DNA of 43,847 nt from an archaeon (GTDB taxonomy: Archaea; Asgardarchaeota; Heimdallarchaeia; Heimdallarchaeales; Kariarchaeaceae), in assembly GCA_024280435.1 (NCBI GenBank), contig JAJRQD010000216.1:1-43847 (forward strand), given 5' to 3'. A program made the translations under genes and the position numbers. Position 1 is the stretch's first letter, and each line of letters begins with the position of its first letter. Shown in pieces: positions 2,877-35,458 of the stretch. The notes under the pieces were generated by a model that worked only from the letters and a program-made list of their open reading frames with translations, was not told the DNA's origin and made no database searches.

Positions 2877-4070
2877 TCACTTAATCTCAATCAATCTTAG
2901 AAAGCCAAATGCAAAAATAAATCTAATTATCGCAGATGCCATGAATAATTGATCATATCCAACACCAATATCAAGACTAATCAGATAATCAACAAGATTA
3001 CCAAAAATAATAGATCCTGAAAAAGTAGCAATACCAAGTGCCAATGCATGAGTACCAAGGAATAAGCCTCTCTGATCAATCCTGCCAAGTTGCTGGACAG
3101 TATCCAGTGCAATCTCCTTTTGCAATGTCTGATAGTAGCCAAATGTCAATCCCGCAATCATTCTTGCAGGTATCAGATGCACCCAACTAGTAGCAAATGC
3201 AAATGATAGAGGCACCAACCACATCAGATTTCTTGAGAAAAAGAATGACAAACGATATGAACCGATGAATTTCTTAATTCTACCCGTATATCTTGCGGAT
3301 ATACTGAAGCAGATAAATGTGATTGCCCACATGATAGTTACCTGTGATGTGGTGGCCAATTCATTTGTTCTCTTTGGAAATAATGGCCAAGAAGTTGACA
3401 TTGCAAAATTAAATAATGCATCATAGAATACAAATTTTCTGAAACTACTCACTTTCAAAGGTTCTAACAGACTGATCTTTCTCTTGACAACTCTTTTATG
3501 TATCTTGTCTCTTGTAATGAAATACAGAATAATAACTGCAATGGTGGCAAATAAAAAACTACTAGCTGCTGTGATGAATAAGAATTCATATGGATCTGCC
3601 AATGTATCACTTAATAATCCAACCACAAGAAATCCAATACCTCCTAGTAATCCCGAGGTTGCACCTACACGTCCAAGCATCTCTGCTCTCTGTAGATCTG
3701 AGAAAGTATCACCGATAAGTGCATTGAATGCAGGTTGAACTGCTGAGAAGCCAACACTGTAGAAGGCAAACACAACTATTATGAATACAGGTGTTATTGA
3801 TCTCAGAAACATGAAGGATGAGAATGCAGATAATAAAAATCCAAATAACAGTATAATTATTCTTCCGAACCTGTCTGATAATGATCCAAATACATTCTGT
3901 CCACCGAAACTCAGTAAATTTCTGAATGATAACAAGTATCCCTGATCTGATGATGTAGCACCCTGTTGATCTGCATATAGCTGTACAAAAGAGAACAGAA
4001 TTCTTTCTCCAAGTATTTTAAATGAGGAAATCATTGAATAATAACGATACAGGAATTTATCATCCTTCAT
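2877..4070 (-). CDS. Major facilitator superfamily transporter
   Basis: 397 aa, about 12 hydrophobic segments, MFS loop motif GSLSDRFGRIIILL. Confidence 0.85.
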   Translation of the reverse strand: MKDDKFLYRYYSMISSFKILGERILFSFVQLYADQQGATSSDQGYLLSFRNLLSFGGQNVFGSLSDRFGRIIILLFGFLLSAFSSFMFLRSITPVFIIVVFAFYSVGFSAVQPAFNALIGDTFSDLQRAEMLGRVGATSGLLGGIGFLVVGLLSDTLADPYEFLFITAASSFLFATIAVIILYFITRDKIHKRVVKRKISLLEPLKVSSFRKFVFYDALFNFAMSTSWPLFPKRTNELATTSQVTIMWAITFICFSISARYTGRIKKFIGSYRLSFFFSRNLMWLVPLSFAFATSWVHLIPARMIAGLTFGYYQTLQKEIALDTVQQLGRIDQRGLFLGTHALALGIATFSGSIIFGNLVDYLISLDIGVGYDQLFMASAIIRFIFAFGFLRLIEIK

Positions 4071-4072
4071 AA

Positions 4073-7000
4073 TTGAATCTACAACAATCTTGTATTAAAC
4101 TATATTATTTGGATAATTCTCTTAATTTACATATTTTTTACTATTCTTTCAGAATTAATCATGAGATAACAGTACCAGAACTGGACTATAATCATTATTT
4201 ATCTATGGATACAGGGCAAGATAATTTTGTCACTGCCGTTTCTAGCAGAGAGACTGCCTTCATACTTGAGGGACGAGGAATTAAATCATACAATTACTGG
4301 TGGAACAAGAGAAAAGCAAAGAGCACATACGATAAACAGGGGATCAAATGGGGTAAACAAATGAGAATTTTACAAATCAAACGATATAATGTCTTCAGAA
4401 ATTTCATTGCACATATGAATGATGCAGATGCCTACTCATTTGAGATAGATGAGGTTTCAAAAGAAACAATATTTCCAATTAATAACGGGATTTCTCTTGA
4501 TGCCACAGGTGATTTTTTTGAGACCGCAATTAGAATACCAATGAAGGATGCCTTACCTTACAGACGAGGATCAATCAATGTTGAATTGAATAATAGCGAT
4601 CCATTTTTATTTTTCAAATTCAATATAAATGAGACATCAGGTGTCAGAATAGTGATTAACAATACTGAATATATTAATTTCAATCAGTTTGTTATAAATA
4701 CAGAGACCTACAATCCTATGTGGGAACCGATTGAATATCTAGATACCTACATGATGCCAATGCCATTTGAGACATTCTTCCCAGTTCAGGAGACTGGCGA
4801 CTATTTTGTCACAGTCGGATTCTATGATGAGTTTGATTATGAAACAGTGGGCGATACTGTGAATCTAAATATCACAATAGAACATTTCAAGCCAGGTGAG
4901 GCCAGAGAGGGTGAGATCTCTGAGATTATCCAATCTGATGCATATAAGAGAATTGTAGAAACACAGCAATACCTTATAGATGCAGGCTATATCAATTACA
5001 CTGATAATACAGTGAATCTTGCAGAGCTTGATGAAAATGATCCAGACTTTGCAAAAGGAATTGGATTATCAATATACTCACTTCTAAAATCAGCAGAGTA
5101 TATTGCCAATGCAGGCAGTCCAGATCAACAACAAATTGATAGTATAATGACCAAATATGCTAATATTGCATATCAACTGATGCAGACAATAAATACTACC
5201 ATGTTAGAGCCAATTTCAAATTTATTCTATTATAGACCATCTGAATCTGGTAATGGAGATTATGTGGCATATCTATCAGATAACGTGTATGTACAGGTAG
5301 CTCTAGGTGAATTATACTGGATGGCGGAAACATATATTCTGGATAAATCAAATCTAATGTTCATTCCTCAGAATATACAGACACAGATGTTGAATTTGAA
5401 TAAAAGAATTCGGGATATGTTCATATACAATAATGAATATGTAGAAGTTATAAAAATATCAAATTATAGTGAAGATGGTGATAGCTCTTTGTTTAATAGT
5501 AATGATTATTCTTCAATCCAATTATCAAACTATGTTTCTCTTGATTCACTGGTACTTATGGCAGAATCTAATTATTGGGCAGGTGAAACTGTTAATATGG
5601 ATAGTATTGTCAGCTTCATCGATTCTAACATGAAAGTAACGAATATATCAGGCCTTACACTGTCAGCCGCAGGAATATATATCTCAGATGTTTACAACGA
5701 TGAGGTATTGATTGATTTTGCAAAATTGGATGATGGAGGTGTATTTACTGATTATACCGCTGAGGCAAAGGATCTAATTAATAATGATGTACAGTTATTG
5801 CCTGCATCACCTGCAATAAATGATGCATTTTATTTTGGTAAACTATCAAGATTTAAGGCGATTATAATTGAGGGTGGAACTAATTCAACAGGAAGTAGCC
5901 TTATTTGGGAATACTGGGATGGCTCAGCTTATCAATCCTTAGTTGTCAGAGATGCTTCACAATCATTCTCAATTGTAAATGATATAATCAGCTTTGATGC
6001 ACCTATAGATTGGCAACAGAATACAGTGGATGGACAGCAGGCCTACTGGGTGAGAGCAAGAGTATCTGTTGCAGGAGGTCAAGCATTGGCTAGTAGAATA
6101 CAGTTGAGAGATGTACTGTATACGCAGGTAAATACTGCAAATCTATTGGATAATGCACTGTATATCTCACATCTAAATACATATGCAAAAGAGAATTATG
6201 CACCAAATTCCATTGCATCAGATATAAGACTCACTCTTGAATTTGCCAGTGATATTGCTGAGAATATGCTTAGTGTATTCAGAGCAGACAATGCAATTGA
6301 TAATTTACTATATAGTAGTGTAGATATAACTGCTGCCAGTGAGAAATTAATCACTGCAATGGATAATGCCATGGCTATTTTTGCACTGAATAGATTAGCA
6401 CTAAATTGGGGTGTTATTGCTCCACTTGGCTCTGGATCCACTATTGTCAGAACATGGAAAATAAGATCAATCAACAGTTTAACTGCAATTAATAATTTAT
6501 TATTTGATCAGAGTACCAACAAATATTTTGCACAATATGATGATGAGACAAATAAATACAATATTGATGATAGTATAATTGCACAGAATCAGGTAGTGGC
6601 AAATCTAGTCATGGCTGCACCAATATCAGATGCATTTCCAGTACAACTTGCCAGTATTACTCAGAGAGATCTATCTGTATTCTCAGAGGGACAATTAACT
6701 ATCGGTCTATCGCAGGTTATTACTACTGGCACTTGGATATTCTTTGATCCATTCAAGCCATTCTCTGTGGATGCCAAGATCACTATAAGCGAGTTTGATT
6801 ATCAGGAAACATTAAATATAGATCTATTATCTAATTTTGGGGCTAATGATGTAATACTGCTAAATTTCTTCTATCCAGTTGAGAAACGAGGATCTTACAA
6901 TATTAAAATAGATCTGTCACTTGAGGGGAATATTCTATTATCAGAGACAATTGAATTAAGAGCATTAGGTAGGCCATTTACAGAGATTACAGAGAGTGAT

Positions 7001-8236
7001 CTTGTATTCAAAACAACAGATGACAAATTCACCGGTACATTCTCAGTATTCGATGAGATTGGATTACCATTATCCAGCCTCAGATTAGAAGGGGCTTTAG
7101 GCCAGGAGATTGAGGAATCAATTACAGATCATGGGCAGAAATATATCTCATCTGCAAGATCAGATAGTTCTGGTAAAGTATCAATTACCTATGATGTAAA
7201 AGATCTGATCAAAGATGGGCTCATAGATAATGATACAATCAATTCATTAGATGGTACATTTGATTTCATAGACACCTTTATGTATCTGAATATAACAAAT
7301 GCAGATTCATTTGATCTTCAGACTACTACCTTCAGAATTCCAGTGCGAATAAAATGGATGTATGCATTCATGAGAATAAGCCCAACTAATCTGGAGATGA
7401 CGCAGGGAACTACTGATAGTTTCACATTCACCGTCACTGCATTGAATCAGGAACAGGATCCTATAAGAAATGCAAGGATAACATACTCTGTACTTGAGAT
7501 CGCAAGTATATCCAATGAGGTATTTACAGATAATGATGGAGAGGCTACAATCACACTTAGAGATGCAGATCTTTTTGCATTGAGCAATCTAGCACTAAGA
7601 AACAATATATTGAATGATGGTGATCTGCAGAGAAGTACTGCCGTATTGTTATTCAATATGACTCATTCTGATTATCAGGATAAAGGAATTGCAAGAGTGT
7701 TGAATATCATACCAAATAATTTGAAAATCATTGCCAATCCAGTGCAGAGTGTTGTCAAGGAGAGAAATGCATTGCAATCTGAGATTGCACCTATTCAGAT
7801 AGAGGTAAGTGTGGAGGATCTATTCTCACGAGTAGTACCTGCATATGTGAATCTGGAATGGGCAAATGACAGTTCTTTTGCAAATCAATTCACAGATCTA
7901 AGCACTATTGGTACGCATGTATCTCCCTATACTTTTGATCTTGATCCTTCCAATCTTCCGGCAGGGGAGTATACCTTGCTTGTGATTGCACAGAAAGAGG
8001 GAATTACCAGCACTGTTGAGATTATCACAACCACAGAGGGCATTGGATTATCTCAGTTAGAATTGTCTATACCTGTTGTGGTACCAAGAACTATTATTGT
8101 GGAGACATCAACAACACAGGATGTACTTATTACTGCAAGCTCAATTTTTATAGCTCTGATGATTGCTCAATCTGGCAATATATTCTCATTTGCTATGAAG
8201 AAGATCAAACCAAAATCAGAAGTGGCCAAAGAGTGA
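4073..8236 (+). CDS. Large surface-type protein with C-terminal TM anchor; N-terminal ~114 codons derive from a TnpB-like transposase (chimeric ORF)
   Basis: 1387-aa ORF with a TTG start at 4073. Long beta-rich, Ig-like-looking body; C-terminal TTQDVLITASSIFIALMIAQSGNIFSFAMKKIKPK looks like a TM plus basic tail. The N-terminus resembles TnpB rather than a signal peptide. Possible internal ATG at 4415. Confidence 0.7.
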   Translation: MNLQQSCIKLYYLDNSLNLHIFYYSFRINHEITVPELDYNHYLSMDTGQDNFVTAVSSRETAFILEGRGIKSYNYWWNKRKAKSTYDKQGIKWGKQMRILQIKRYNVFRNFIAHMNDADAYSFEIDEVSKETIFPINNGISLDATGDFFETAIRIPMKDALPYRRGSINVELNNSDPFLFFKFNINETSGVRIVINNTEYINFNQFVINTETYNPMWEPIEYLDTYMMPMPFETFFPVQETGDYFVTVGFYDEFDYETVGDTVNLNITIEHFKPGEAREGEISEIIQSDAYKRIVETQQYLIDAGYINYTDNTVNLAELDENDPDFAKGIGLSIYSLLKSAEYIANAGSPDQQQIDSIMTKYANIAYQLMQTINTTMLEPISNLFYYRPSESGNGDYVAYLSDNVYVQVALGELYWMAETYILDKSNLMFIPQNIQTQMLNLNKRIRDMFIYNNEYVEVIKISNYSEDGDSSLFNSNDYSSIQLSNYVSLDSLVLMAESNYWAGETVNMDSIVSFIDSNMKVTNISGLTLSAAGIYISDVYNDEVLIDFAKLDDGGVFTDYTAEAKDLINNDVQLLPASPAINDAFYFGKLSRFKAIIIEGGTNSTGSSLIWEYWDGSAYQSLVVRDASQSFSIVNDIISFDAPIDWQQNTVDGQQAYWVRARVSVAGGQALASRIQLRDVLYTQVNTANLLDNALYISHLNTYAKENYAPNSIASDIRLTLEFASDIAENMLSVFRADNAIDNLLYSSVDITAASEKLITAMDNAMAIFALNRLALNWGVIAPLGSGSTIVRTWKIRSINSLTAINNLLFDQSTNKYFAQYDDETNKYNIDDSIIAQNQVVANLVMAAPISDAFPVQLASITQRDLSVFSEGQLTIGLSQVITTGTWIFFDPFKPFSVDAKITISEFDYQETLNIDLLSNFGANDVILLNFFYPVEKRGSYNIKIDLSLEGNILLSETIELRALGRPFTEITESDLVFKTTDDKFTGTFSVFDEIGLPLSSLRLEGALGQEIEESITDHGQKYISSARSDSSGKVSITYDVKDLIKDGLIDNDTINSLDGTFDFIDTFMYLNITNADSFDLQTTTFRIPVRIKWMYAFMRISPTNLEMTQGTTDSFTFTVTALNQEQDPIRNARITYSVLEIASISNEVFTDNDGEATITLRDADLFALSNLALRNNILNDGDLQRSTAVLLFNMTHSDYQDKGIARVLNIIPNNLKIIANPVQSVVKERNALQSEIAPIQIEVSVEDLFSRVVPAYVNLEWANDSSFANQFTDLSTIGTHVSPYTFDLDPSNLPAGEYTLLVIAQKEGITSTVEIITTTEGIGLSQLELSIPVVVPRTIIVETSTTQDVLITASSIFIALMIAQSGNIFSFAMKKIKPKSEVAKE
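4163..4414 (+). mobile_element. Remnant of IS200/IS605-family OrfB (TnpB), RuvC-I region only
   Basis: EITVPELDYNHYLSMDTGQDNFVTAVSSRETAFILEGRGIKSYNYWWNKRKAKSTYDKQGIKWGKQMRILQIKRYNVFRNFIAH resembles the TnpB block (L.YD..LSIDLG..N.....GLKS.N.WYNK..A.....DKQG.K....R...L...R...I.DF.H). No zinc finger or RuvC-II/III part follows. Confidence 0.75.
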
Positions 8237-9491: not shown

Positions 9492-11222
9492 TTGAGGCAC
9501 GTTATTCTTGGAGCTAATTCATTTGTTGGTACTTTTGTACTGAAATTGTTAGTAACTATCGGAGAGGGCATAAAAATTATAGCTGTCTCTCCAACAGGTA
9601 AAATTGATGATGAAATTATTCGGGACAATATTGTTATCAAGACTGGCGATATACTGAATTTAAAGGATTTATATGATGTTTTTGAGAAGGATGATATAAT
9701 TTATAATACTCAGGTAATATTTGATGAAACACATGATATTACAGAAGTAGAGCTTGTAAACTATGCAGGCCTCATTAATATACTTGGTATTGCTAGAATA
9801 ACCGGTGTAAGTAGAATTGTATCAGTACTACCACAATTTGAGGGATCTGATGAATTTAACACTGAATTTCATAAAATAACCAGGAAAACAACTAGGATTA
9901 TAGAAAATTATTTTGCAAGAAAAGAATTTGGATGGTCATCCAAAGCGATCAGGGTCTGGGCAAAAAAAAATATTACTGAATTCAAAATCCCGATTGAATT
10001 CTATGATGATGAATTTGAGGATATTGAGGAGGAAAGTGTGCAGGATACTACTTCTGGACCTCAAGGACCCAAACTAAGTGGACCTCAAGCACCCAATTCT
10101 GAGGGACCCAAACTAAGTGGACCTCAAGCACCCAATTCTGAGGGACCCAAACTAAGTGGACCTCAAGCACCCAATTCTGAGGGACCCAAACTAAGTGGAC
10201 CTCAAGCACCAGATTCTGAGGGACCAATGGCAACTTCAGGGCCTATTCCTCCAAAAAAAGATATAATAATTAGTAATAATCAAGAGAAAGATGAAATAAT
10301 TGAGGAGAATAAATCGGACAATGTAGATAATAAAAATGAAGCACATGAAGATAATAAAAATGAAGCACATGAAGACAATACAGATGAAGCACATGAAGAT
10401 AATAAAAATGGAGCACATGAAGACAATAAAAATGAAGCACATGAAGATAATAAAAATGAAGCACATGAAGATAATAAAAATGAAGCACATGAAGACAATA
10501 CAGATGAAGAGGAAATTACAAAAACAGATGATGAGATAGCATTGGATAAATTTTGGGAAAGACAAAACAAAGAAACTGAGAGAAGGAAGAGAACTAAACT
10601 AAAACTGGAGGAAGAAGCTAAAAAACAGGCTAAAATAAGAGAGAAAGAGAGAAAAATCAAAAAAGAACTGCGAAGAAGAGAATTACCAAAGGCAAAATTA
10701 GCAGTTGCACGACTTGGAAGAATATTTGGATCATACGATCATACAATCACTGTTGAGTACTGCGATGCTGTGAGAAGAGGTAAACTTACAGTTAATGGAG
10801 AGATTAATAAACAAATTTCATGGATCACTCCAATTGATATTGGACGTGCATTGATAATTCTTGGAGATAAAACAGTGCCCACTGGTGAGTATAACATGAA
10901 TTCATTCATTGCATCCCCATTGGAGATCATTAAACAACTGGATAAACAGAACCATTCAAAGACTTTAATTACACATCTGGACATTAAAAAAGAATTATGG
11001 AGGGTAAAAATAAATAATCTGCTGGCAGGATTTGGTATCGGGAAAATGAAAGAAACTGTATCTCTGTTCAAATACAATGTAGAACAGATATTTCCAGATA
11101 CAGAGGCAAGAAATAGATGGAAATGGTATCCAAGATATGATTTTCAAAAAGCAATAGAAGATGCATTTCTGTGGTATATTGAGGTCATGGTACCGATAAT
11201 ATACAATATAGAGATAAAATAG
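9492..11222 (+). CDS. NAD-dependent epimerase/SDR-like protein with a long repeat-containing charged insertion
   Basis: TTG start; Rossmann-type N-terminus RHVILGANSFVGTFVLKLL; later RLGRIFGSYDHT (SDR substrate-loop-like) and ISWITPIDIGRALI. Tandem repeats lie between the two halves. Confidence 0.7.
   Translation: MRHVILGANSFVGTFVLKLLVTIGEGIKIIAVSPTGKIDDEIIRDNIVIKTGDILNLKDLYDVFEKDDIIYNTQVIFDETHDITEVELVNYAGLINILGIARITGVSRIVSVLPQFEGSDEFNTEFHKITRKTTRIIENYFARKEFGWSSKAIRVWAKKNITEFKIPIEFYDDEFEDIEEESVQDTTSGPQGPKLSGPQAPNSEGPKLSGPQAPNSEGPKLSGPQAPNSEGPKLSGPQAPDSEGPMATSGPIPPKKDIIISNNQEKDEIIEENKSDNVDNKNEAHEDNKNEAHEDNTDEAHEDNKNGAHEDNKNEAHEDNKNEAHEDNKNEAHEDNTDEEEITKTDDEIALDKFWERQNKETERRKRTKLKLEEEAKKQAKIREKERKIKKELRRRELPKAKLAVARLGRIFGSYDHTITVEYCDAVRRGKLTVNGEINKQISWITPIDIGRALIILGDKTVPTGEYNMNSFIASPLEIIKQLDKQNHSKTLITHLDIKKELWRVKINNLLAGFGIGKMKETVSLFKYNVEQIFPDTEARNRWKWYPRYDFQKAIEDAFLWYIEVMVPIIYNIEIK
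10071..10226 (+). repeat. In-frame 39-bp minisatellite, 4 copies (KLSGPQAPNSEGP)
   Basis: aaactaagtggacctcaagcacccaattctgagggaccc repeats at 10071, 10110, 10149 and 10188; the last copy is slightly diverged. Confidence 0.95.
10326..10493 (+). repeat. In-frame 24-bp minisatellite, 7 copies plus a partial (DNKNEAHE)
   Basis: gataataaaaatgaagcacatgaa and variants (gacaatacagatgaagcacatgaa) from 10326 with period 24. Confidence 0.95.
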
Positions 11223-32488: not shown

Positions 32489-35458
32489 TTGTTAATTCTT
32501 ATTATATTATTGACCAGTGTTCTGCAAAGTACTGCAAACACTGCGGGAACAAATATAATTATTACCGAGGTATTGTATGATGCACCAAATTCAGATGCAA
32601 CTGAAGAATGGATTGAGCTATACAATCCAACATCATCTGCAATTGATGTGACTGGGTGGTCAGTATCAGATAATGCAGGTACATTCACCATCTCTGGAGT
32701 GATCGCAGCCAATGGATATCTAGTTATTGCAAGGGATGCCAATGCATTCTCTGCACTCTATGGATATGCACCAGATATCTCAGGATCAAATCTTGCATTA
32801 TCAAATTCGGGAGATAAGATCAGTCTGAAAAATAATATAGGAACTGAAGTTGATTTCATGGCATATGAGAATTATGTGTCAGGATGGACTGTCTCTGCGA
32901 AAGATCTATCTGTCAGAAGAGCCTCTGCAACTGATACGGATACTGGTATTGATTGGGAAAACTCTAATAGTCTAGGAGATCCAGGATTTGGTAATTATGC
33001 ACCAAGTACTCCTGATACCACTCCACCAGTGGTCACAATCACAAATCCAACTGCATCCACTATTTCTGGTTCCGTAATTATAAGTATGAGTGTTACAGAT
33101 GCCAGTGCAATTGTTCAGAATGAGATATATATAGATAATACATTAAGAGCAAGTTCACCATCCTATAATTGGGATACCACTCTTGAGCTTGATACAGCAT
33201 ACACAATTAAAGCACGTGCTATGGATAGTTCCAATAACTGGGGAGAGGCAATATTCTCAGTTACTGTTGATAACACAAATTATGTGCCTCCCACACTATC
33301 AGAGATGAAGATAATGGCATACAATGTTGAACAATCTGGTCTCAATCCAGATTGGAAACAGGTGGTTAAGGAAGAGAATGCAGATATTGCCATATTTATC
33401 GAGACTGGTGATTGGGATACTAATGGAGTATTTGAATCATACATATCTGAATTCAATACTTATTTCACAACAGAAGACCCATACTATGGTGCACAAACTA
33501 CTGGAATAGCATTTTCTACATCTGGAGAAGCAATAATGTCAAGATACCCCATTGTATCTGTGACACAGATACCACTTGTAACACTAGATGATGGTAGTAG
33601 TTTTGATCCCTCACATGATTTTCTATCAGTCGAACTTGATATTCCTGGTACTAATATGTATGTTGTTGCATCACATCTCAAATGTTGTTCTGGTGCAACT
33701 AATGAGAACAAACGAGAGAGAGCACAAGAAGGCATTATCAATTATATTGATGGTCTAGGAGATGTTCCAGTTGTATATGCAGGTGATCTGAATTCATTCT
33801 CTCCAGAAGATGTTGGTCCACTTGCACCAAATGGAGATCTGAATTATGGTCCAATGTCAATGATGTTAAAGGATGACACATTTGGTGCATATTCTCAGTA
33901 TGGATCAACTGTGCATACATTTGTTGATTCCTTCAGAACTATGAATCCGAATGATCCAGGTTATACTTATGGACATCAAAACCCTACTTTCACATCTAGA
34001 ATTGATTTTCTCACATTAAACCAGCATTTGTATGATAAGATGATCTCTGCCACTGTTGGTGATACACCCACTGCAAATACGGGCTCTGATCATTATTCAA
34101 CTGATGTGACACTGAATTTTGCCACTACAAATGACACCACAGCACCTACACAGGTAACCGGTCTAGTTACAACAACAGTCAGCAATACACAGATTGATCT
34201 GACATGGTCTGTTGCAACTGATGATACAGCAGTTATAGGATATAATATCTACAGAGATGGCGTATTATTGACCTCCACAACAGGGACAAGCTATTCTGAT
34301 ACTGGACTATCAAGTCTCACTACATATTCTTATCAGATATCTGCATCTGATGCAGCAGGTAATGAAGGGATTAGGTCAATCAGCAGTTCAAGTACTACAC
34401 TTGCTGATCCAGATACTACACCTCCAACTCAGGTTACAGGTCTTTCCACAACTGTTATTGGAACAACACAGATTGATCTAACATGGAGTGCTTCTACTGA
34501 TAATATTGCAGTTGCAGGGTATAATATATACAGAGATGGTGTATTCATAACCTCTACCCCAACTACTAGCTACTCTGATACGGGTGTGACTGAAGCCAGT
34601 ACTTATTCATATCAGATATCTGCATTTGATGCTGCGGGTAACGAGGGTTTAGCATCAAATTCTGTGAGTGTATCCACTCCTGATATTTCAGCACCTACAC
34701 AGGTAACAGGTCTAGTTGCAACAACAATCAGTGATACACAGATTGATCTACTGTGGAGTGCTTCTACTGATAATCTAGCTGTTGCAGGATATAATATATA
34801 CAGAGATGGAGTATTATTGACCTCCACAACAGGGACAAGCTATTCTGATATGGGATTATCAAGTCTCACCACATATTCTTATCAGATATCTGCATTTGAT
34901 ACAGCTGGAAATGAGGGACTTCTATCCAATTCTGTATCCAGTACGACTAATGCACCACCTAGTGGAAATTCAATACTGATCTATGAAGTTTACTATGATA
35001 CAATTGGAAGAGATAGCATTGAAGAATGGATTGAATTGTATAACTATGGAAATACAGCAGTTGACCTTTCTGGATGGACTATTTCTGATAATTCAGGTAC
35101 ATACACTATTGCTCAGGGAGTAATACTACAACCAGGAAAATATCTGGTAATTGCAAGAGACAACAATGGTTTCTTCAGCCTATATGGATTTAATCCAGAT
35201 ATAGCAGATCTATCACTTGCACTTGGAAACAAGGGAGATATGCTAACATTAAAGGATACTGCATCTCAGATTATTGATTTTGTAGCTTGGGAAAATTATG
35301 TTTCAGGTTGGAATATAGTAGCAAAAAGAGGTCAGACAATATCAAGAACATCAATAGTAGATACAGATACAGTTACTGATTGGATTGTAAAGCTAAATAA
35401 TGGTACTCCGATTAATAATCTAAATATTGCAATGATACCCATTTCAACAAAGAATTGA
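32489..35458 (+). CDS. Secreted multidomain nuclease: lamin-tail domain - endonuclease/exonuclease/phosphatase - three fibronectin type III domains - lamin-tail domain
   Basis: Hydrophobic N-terminus MLILIILLTSVLQSTANT; LTD-like IIITEVLYDAPNSDATEEWIELYNPTSSAIDVTGWSVSD; EEP motifs MKIMAYNVEQSG, VYAGDLNS, SDHYSTDV; FN3 units (APTQVTGL...YNIYRDGV...YSYQISA..AAGNEG) x3; second LTD IYEVYYDTIGRDSIEEWIELYNYGNTAVDLSGW. Confidence 0.88.
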   Translation: MLILIILLTSVLQSTANTAGTNIIITEVLYDAPNSDATEEWIELYNPTSSAIDVTGWSVSDNAGTFTISGVIAANGYLVIARDANAFSALYGYAPDISGSNLALSNSGDKISLKNNIGTEVDFMAYENYVSGWTVSAKDLSVRRASATDTDTGIDWENSNSLGDPGFGNYAPSTPDTTPPVVTITNPTASTISGSVIISMSVTDASAIVQNEIYIDNTLRASSPSYNWDTTLELDTAYTIKARAMDSSNNWGEAIFSVTVDNTNYVPPTLSEMKIMAYNVEQSGLNPDWKQVVKEENADIAIFIETGDWDTNGVFESYISEFNTYFTTEDPYYGAQTTGIAFSTSGEAIMSRYPIVSVTQIPLVTLDDGSSFDPSHDFLSVELDIPGTNMYVVASHLKCCSGATNENKRERAQEGIINYIDGLGDVPVVYAGDLNSFSPEDVGPLAPNGDLNYGPMSMMLKDDTFGAYSQYGSTVHTFVDSFRTMNPNDPGYTYGHQNPTFTSRIDFLTLNQHLYDKMISATVGDTPTANTGSDHYSTDVTLNFATTNDTTAPTQVTGLVTTTVSNTQIDLTWSVATDDTAVIGYNIYRDGVLLTSTTGTSYSDTGLSSLTTYSYQISASDAAGNEGIRSISSSSTTLADPDTTPPTQVTGLSTTVIGTTQIDLTWSASTDNIAVAGYNIYRDGVFITSTPTTSYSDTGVTEASTYSYQISAFDAAGNEGLASNSVSVSTPDISAPTQVTGLVATTISDTQIDLLWSASTDNLAVAGYNIYRDGVLLTSTTGTSYSDMGLSSLTTYSYQISAFDTAGNEGLLSNSVSSTTNAPPSGNSILIYEVYYDTIGRDSIEEWIELYNYGNTAVDLSGWTISDNSGTYTIAQGVILQPGKYLVIARDNNGFFSLYGFNPDIADLSLALGNKGDMLTLKDTASQIIDFVAWENYVSGWNIVAKRGQTISRTSIVDTDTVTDWIVKLNNGTPINNLNIAMIPISTKN

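Follow-up and report, generated by a model that had tools for sequence, protein, structure and literature searches.

An internal TnpB fragment in frame with a surface-protein gene, and a probably displaced export signal, in a Kariarchaeaceae genome

The DNA analysed here (the window, 43,847 nucleotides) is contig 250 of an archaeal genome of the family Kariarchaeaceae, which is assembled as 4.03 Mb in 342 contigs and is 84% complete. On the forward strand, positions 4073-8236 hold an ORF of 1387 codons which starts at TTG and is open throughout, and in which, as the initial annotation had claimed, a piece of TnpB is in frame with a surface protein. Gene callers would annotate it as a single protein of 1387 residues. 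Bases 4073-4162 are not TnpB; an internal TnpB fragment occupies 4163..4416 (+ strand), and the mature part of the surface protein, for which there is no export signal in frame, follows at 4417..8236 (+). The TnpB-derived DNA is hence shorter than the 4073-4500 originally assigned to it. The tetranucleotide TCAT, a putative insertion target in view of the junction statistics given below, abuts the left side of the fragment (4159..4162, +), and a signal-peptide-like hydrophobic segment, IYNNLVLNYIIWIILLIYIFFTILSELI, lies upstream at about 4077..4160 (+) in a frame other than that of the ORF. The left neighbour is a divergent MFS transporter gene (2877..4070, - strand; Pfam MFS_1, E 8.7e-23). 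The NCBIfam search of the 1387-codon ORF gave no useful match and the Rfam search of the window gave no family at threshold. Elsewhere in the window, a short-chain dehydrogenase-like ORF (9492-11222) carries a low-complexity insert with tandem arrays of 39 bp x 4.1 and 24 bp x 7.9, and a 989-codon ORF (32489-35458), which combines a Lamin Tail Domain with fibronectin type III, rhamnogalacturonan-lyase beta-sheet and exo/endonuclease-phosphatase domains, probably encodes a secreted nuclease, as its domain content suggests.

Regarding the identity of the fragment, residues 31-98 of the ORF have only a weak match to Pfam OrfB_IS605 (E 7.2e-5, 23.4 bits, under the curated cut-off), and the same match passes the cut-off in sister copies of the fragment. 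The earlier reading of codons ~31-114 as the RuvC-I block of TnpB is settled by comparison within the genome itself, since the DNA is 94% identical to contig C248 over 265 bp, and similar matches are found on C107, C46, C186, C328 and C214 with E values down to 1e-115. In the window the stretch shared with these six contigs runs from about 4158 to 4417. C328 runs on into the C-terminal half of TnpB, with the Zn ribbon and the stop codon. Moreover, a genome of the same family (G008) contains a full-length homologue (407 residues, in a frame of 419 codons) with Zn ribbon, which matches TnpB and Cas12f structures in PDB, and the window piece of ~85 codons corresponds to about residues 177-268 of this homologue, the RuvC-I region included. 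Missing from it are the N-terminal half of TnpB, RuvC-II, the Zn ribbon, RuvC-III and both ends of the parent element, so that it is a fragment and not an element. The features of an active nuclease (complete RuvC triad, Zn ribbon, N-terminal domain) are not all there, and the piece, as judged from its sequence, would be without most of the parts that a working nuclease needs. The insert measures 254 bp now and measured 260 bp before a 6-bp deletion private to the window copy, both being 2 modulo 3; its left edge is uncertain by up to 5 bases, where the sister copies read ATCAGGAG and the window reads ATCATGAG, and its right edge by 1.

The fragment is of multicopy origin. Searches of the genome gave a count of over 40 pieces derived from this TnpB element, and none of them is an intact TnpB gene; many of the fragments are cut by contig ends, thus intact copies may sit unassembled. 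The left edges of the internal copies are distributed non-randomly: one and the same TnpB position is the start of ten fragments whose flanks are unrelated, and a small number of recurring positions account for others. The window copy likewise has breakpoints in common with copies in unrelated flanks: C107 and C46 share its left edge, near GGAGATAAC, and C248 shares its right breakpoint, GCACATAT. Of the 39 left junctions that TnpB fragments form in the genome, 19 carry TCAT, against 4.6% expected per site; ten of the 19 start at a single point and may count as one unit, the distinct start points number eight, and TC is the informative part of the motif because its AT half can derive from the TnpB side. 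The window copy, too, is joined to host DNA just 3' of TCAT. Two full-length elements of G008 can be aligned from their first base, and each starts after TTCAT; the other four G008 copies give a less clear picture. Insertion of IS200/IS605 type is marked by a constant oligonucleotide at the left end, known from archaeal IS605-type elements and from PATEs (PMC3119063). The Y1 transposase TnpA (PF01797) was sought in the 84%-complete genome and gave no match. An IS607-type route was also considered and rejected; the one serine-recombinase match in the genome is broken by two stops.

The ten fragments with the common start (loci L115, L117, L119, L122, L124, L131, L139, L095, L097 and L100, on contigs C69, C83, C281, C187, C101, C259, C82, C73, C50 and C233 of the window genome, G000) have the junction TC|ATGAGA, or a near variant, at their start, and most of them reach the 3' end of the element over about 200-255 bp; they may be a small mobile unit from the Zn-ribbon end of tnpB. 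Two further loci, L005 and L006, show at about 1470-1500 each a palindrome within tnpB whose central bases are inverted between the copies (CCACACAGTGTTTAACTGTGTGG vs CCACACAGTTAAACACTGTGTGG). A second apparent TnpB fusion is found in a genome of the same class, where a helicase/metallophosphatase ORF and a near-complete TnpB share one reading frame (L060 1-2868, G055:C240; Pfam matches Helicase_C, Metallophos, OrfB_IS605 and Cas12f1-like_TNB). The spread of TnpB fragments without ends is mildly unusual, and short pieces that obey a target rule could be used to study how such end-less IS200/IS605 pieces spread.

The relatives of the surface protein were searched with the downstream part of the ORF in 57 genomes, the window's own and its relatives. 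The scan of genome contigs with a single protein as query found no relative; with an alignment as query, relatives were recovered. Orthologs occur in G003, G004 and G008, with 39-48% identity where segments match, and G005 has a distant one; these four genomes are Candidatus Kariarchaeota FT_008 and three Candidatus Heimdallarchaeota of the same family as the window genome. The window protein has Ig-like domains (Pfam Big_1, E 1.6e-5) and a C-terminal TM segment, and it shares the mature domain and the TM segment with this family while the in-frame signal is missing. In each of the four orthologs the protein begins with a hydrophobic export signal, as visual inspection and hydrophobicity values indicate, and none has TnpB sequence; the alignment of the window protein to them begins just past their export signal. 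Since no ortholog has TnpB, the TnpB block is an addition in the window genome and not a domain of the family, and the loss of a secretion signal, which the initial annotation had proposed, agrees with what the four relatives show. In addition, some 130 residues of the surface protein (window about 5690-6140) have no counterpart in any of the four orthologs and no Pfam match, and the protein stops soon after the TM segment (8195-8236), without the CxxC...CxxC (Zn-ribbon) tail seen in orthologs. In the contigs of the relatives, which are short or have another arrangement, no conserved linkage between the MFS gene and the surface-protein gene was found.

Directly upstream of the TnpB piece lies the hydrophobic, signal-like stretch YIIWIILLIYIFFTIL. 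Its Kyte-Doolittle maximum is 3.04, compared with 2.4-2.6 for the signals of the orthologs, and the proportion of dinucleotide shuffles which are open and equally hydrophobic is 0.0006 in that frame and about 0.2% when all three frames are considered. Thus no signal peptide is visible in the frame of the ORF, whose hydrophobicity maximum is 0.4, just as had been noted at first, but the neighbouring frame contains a signal-like stretch at ~4077-4160. When 4071-4162 is joined to 4417 onward, the two flanks form a single frame which reads IYNNLVLNYIIWIILLIYIFFTILSELIM-NDADAYSFEIDEV, and the empty site would have had this structure. The flanks join in frame only under certain boundaries, those used being given by the TCAT rule and by the exact right edge of C248; the match of frames is no independent proof, as several boundary choices are possible. 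From its hydrophobicity and position, segment 4077-4160 probably once served the surface protein as its export signal. Only a few bases separate the stretch from the divergent MFS gene. No in-frame ATG, GTG or TTG was seen ahead of it; therefore the insertion was probably followed by loss of the old start, or this start sits in a frame that has shifted since. Of the two events that had been suggested for removal of the signal, a transposon insertion or a deletion, the former is favoured because the signal-like segment persists upstream in another frame.

We consider it quite probable that a fragment of IS200/IS605 type inserted into the surface-protein gene and, by shifting the frame, cut the body of the protein off from its export signal, leaving a fusion ORF formed by chance and an export-defective allele. 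The course of events that we infer is as follows. A non-autonomous fragment of IS200/IS605 type (TnpB-only) would have inserted after a TCAT situated where the signal peptide gave way to the mature domain, and the insert, with a length of 2 modulo 3, would have put the signal out of frame. The TnpB piece happens to be open in its own frame and would continue into the mature domain, which gives the apparent fusion ORF, while the start codon of the signal region would probably have been lost after the insertion, or would sit in a frame shifted since. The allele is most likely export-defective, that is, a young pseudogene which is still open, or at best the source of a signal-less internal product. 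The identity and multicopy origin of the fragment, the signals of the orthologs and the TCAT pattern are observed; the empty site, the sequence of events and the loss of function are inferred. Counting against this reading are the sliding edges on which the in-frame join depends, the missing start codon ahead of the signal-like stretch, the narrow gap to the MFS gene and the lack of a Y1 match in the 84%-complete genome.

How far the open frame speaks for use of the product depends on its age. Compared with the sister copies, the window copy has 4 private substitutions in about 250 bp, three of them in its left third and one in the middle, where the 6-bp deletion also lies. A neutral ORF of 3.8 kb would be stop-free at that age with a probability of about 0.1-0.15, a value which is interpolated and assumes that the differences arose after insertion. 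The open frame hence does not show product use, since a neutral ORF of this age may stay stop-free. It had been argued that more than 1270 open codons imply an event either recent or followed by continued use; recency suffices, and the part concerning use is unsupported.

The body of the protein might be expressed without a signal from ATG 4415, by a promoter in or near the insert, and yield a cytoplasmic or tail-anchored protein. This ATG stands immediately ahead of the mature domain and the ORF is intact, but all four relatives have the signal, hence the unexported form would be without known role, and AT-rich DNA yields promoter-like sequences by chance; we regard such expression as unlikely. 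A broader proposal, that end-less internal TnpB fragments move via cryptic ends within tnpB into TCAT and that one of them gave a retained signal-less or chimeric surface protein, appears similarly doubtful. Still less credit can be given to a functional chimera, in which the TnpB piece is kept as a new N-terminus of what is possibly an internal membrane-anchored protein. The frame is indeed open across TnpB and 1270 more codons, and the 6-bp deletion of the window copy preserved it; however, translation from TTG 4073, the farthest upstream start, would read the former signal region out of frame, the ORF's frame offers no signal, the TnpB piece has lost most of its domains, and a stop-free frame is expected often enough without selection. 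A chimeric assembly, with two loci fused inside the repeated TnpB sequence, deserves mention as several other copies of the repeat stop at contig ends and the repeat breaks the assembly. Against it, the private differences of the window copy flank the longest shared stretch and tie each junction to copy-specific sequence, and the left flank provides the very signal-like segment which the right-hand gene is missing, so an assembly origin of the TnpB junction seems, on the sequence at hand, very unlikely. A native origin of the TnpB-like segment, as a domain of the surface-protein family, can be practically dismissed, for the segment occurs in none of the four orthologs and is 94% identical in DNA to dispersed TnpB pieces.

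With the insertion reading, the apparent fusion of a transposase with a surface protein is accounted for by a recent insertion and is ordinary mobile-element biology. Among known systems, the closest in kind are the TnpB-only (IS1341-type) elements of IS200/IS605, which the window copy resembles in its TnpB sequence and in integration of the left end beside a fixed oligonucleotide, here TCAT; it differs in being an internal piece that lacks both element ends, and the search of its genome for a Y1 TnpA gave no match. Short, dispersed and transposase-free derivatives of IS605-type elements are represented in Haloquadratum walsbyi by PATEs and terminal-only derivatives, and HqIRS71 of this species contains part of the C-terminal coding region of the transposase (PMC3119063). 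Fragments of the window type are likewise short, dispersed, transposase-free and derived from IS605-type elements, but PATEs keep the near-terminal palindromes, whereas the window fragment has neither end and the commonest fragments in its genome keep the 3' end only. Another parallel comes from the Rickettsia palindromic elements, short mobile DNAs which lie inside protein-coding genes and leave the reading frame open, and which do so recurrently in genes that work. The open frame is alike in the window, which has a single insert with an export signal displaced by it instead of a series of recurrent in-frame inserts.
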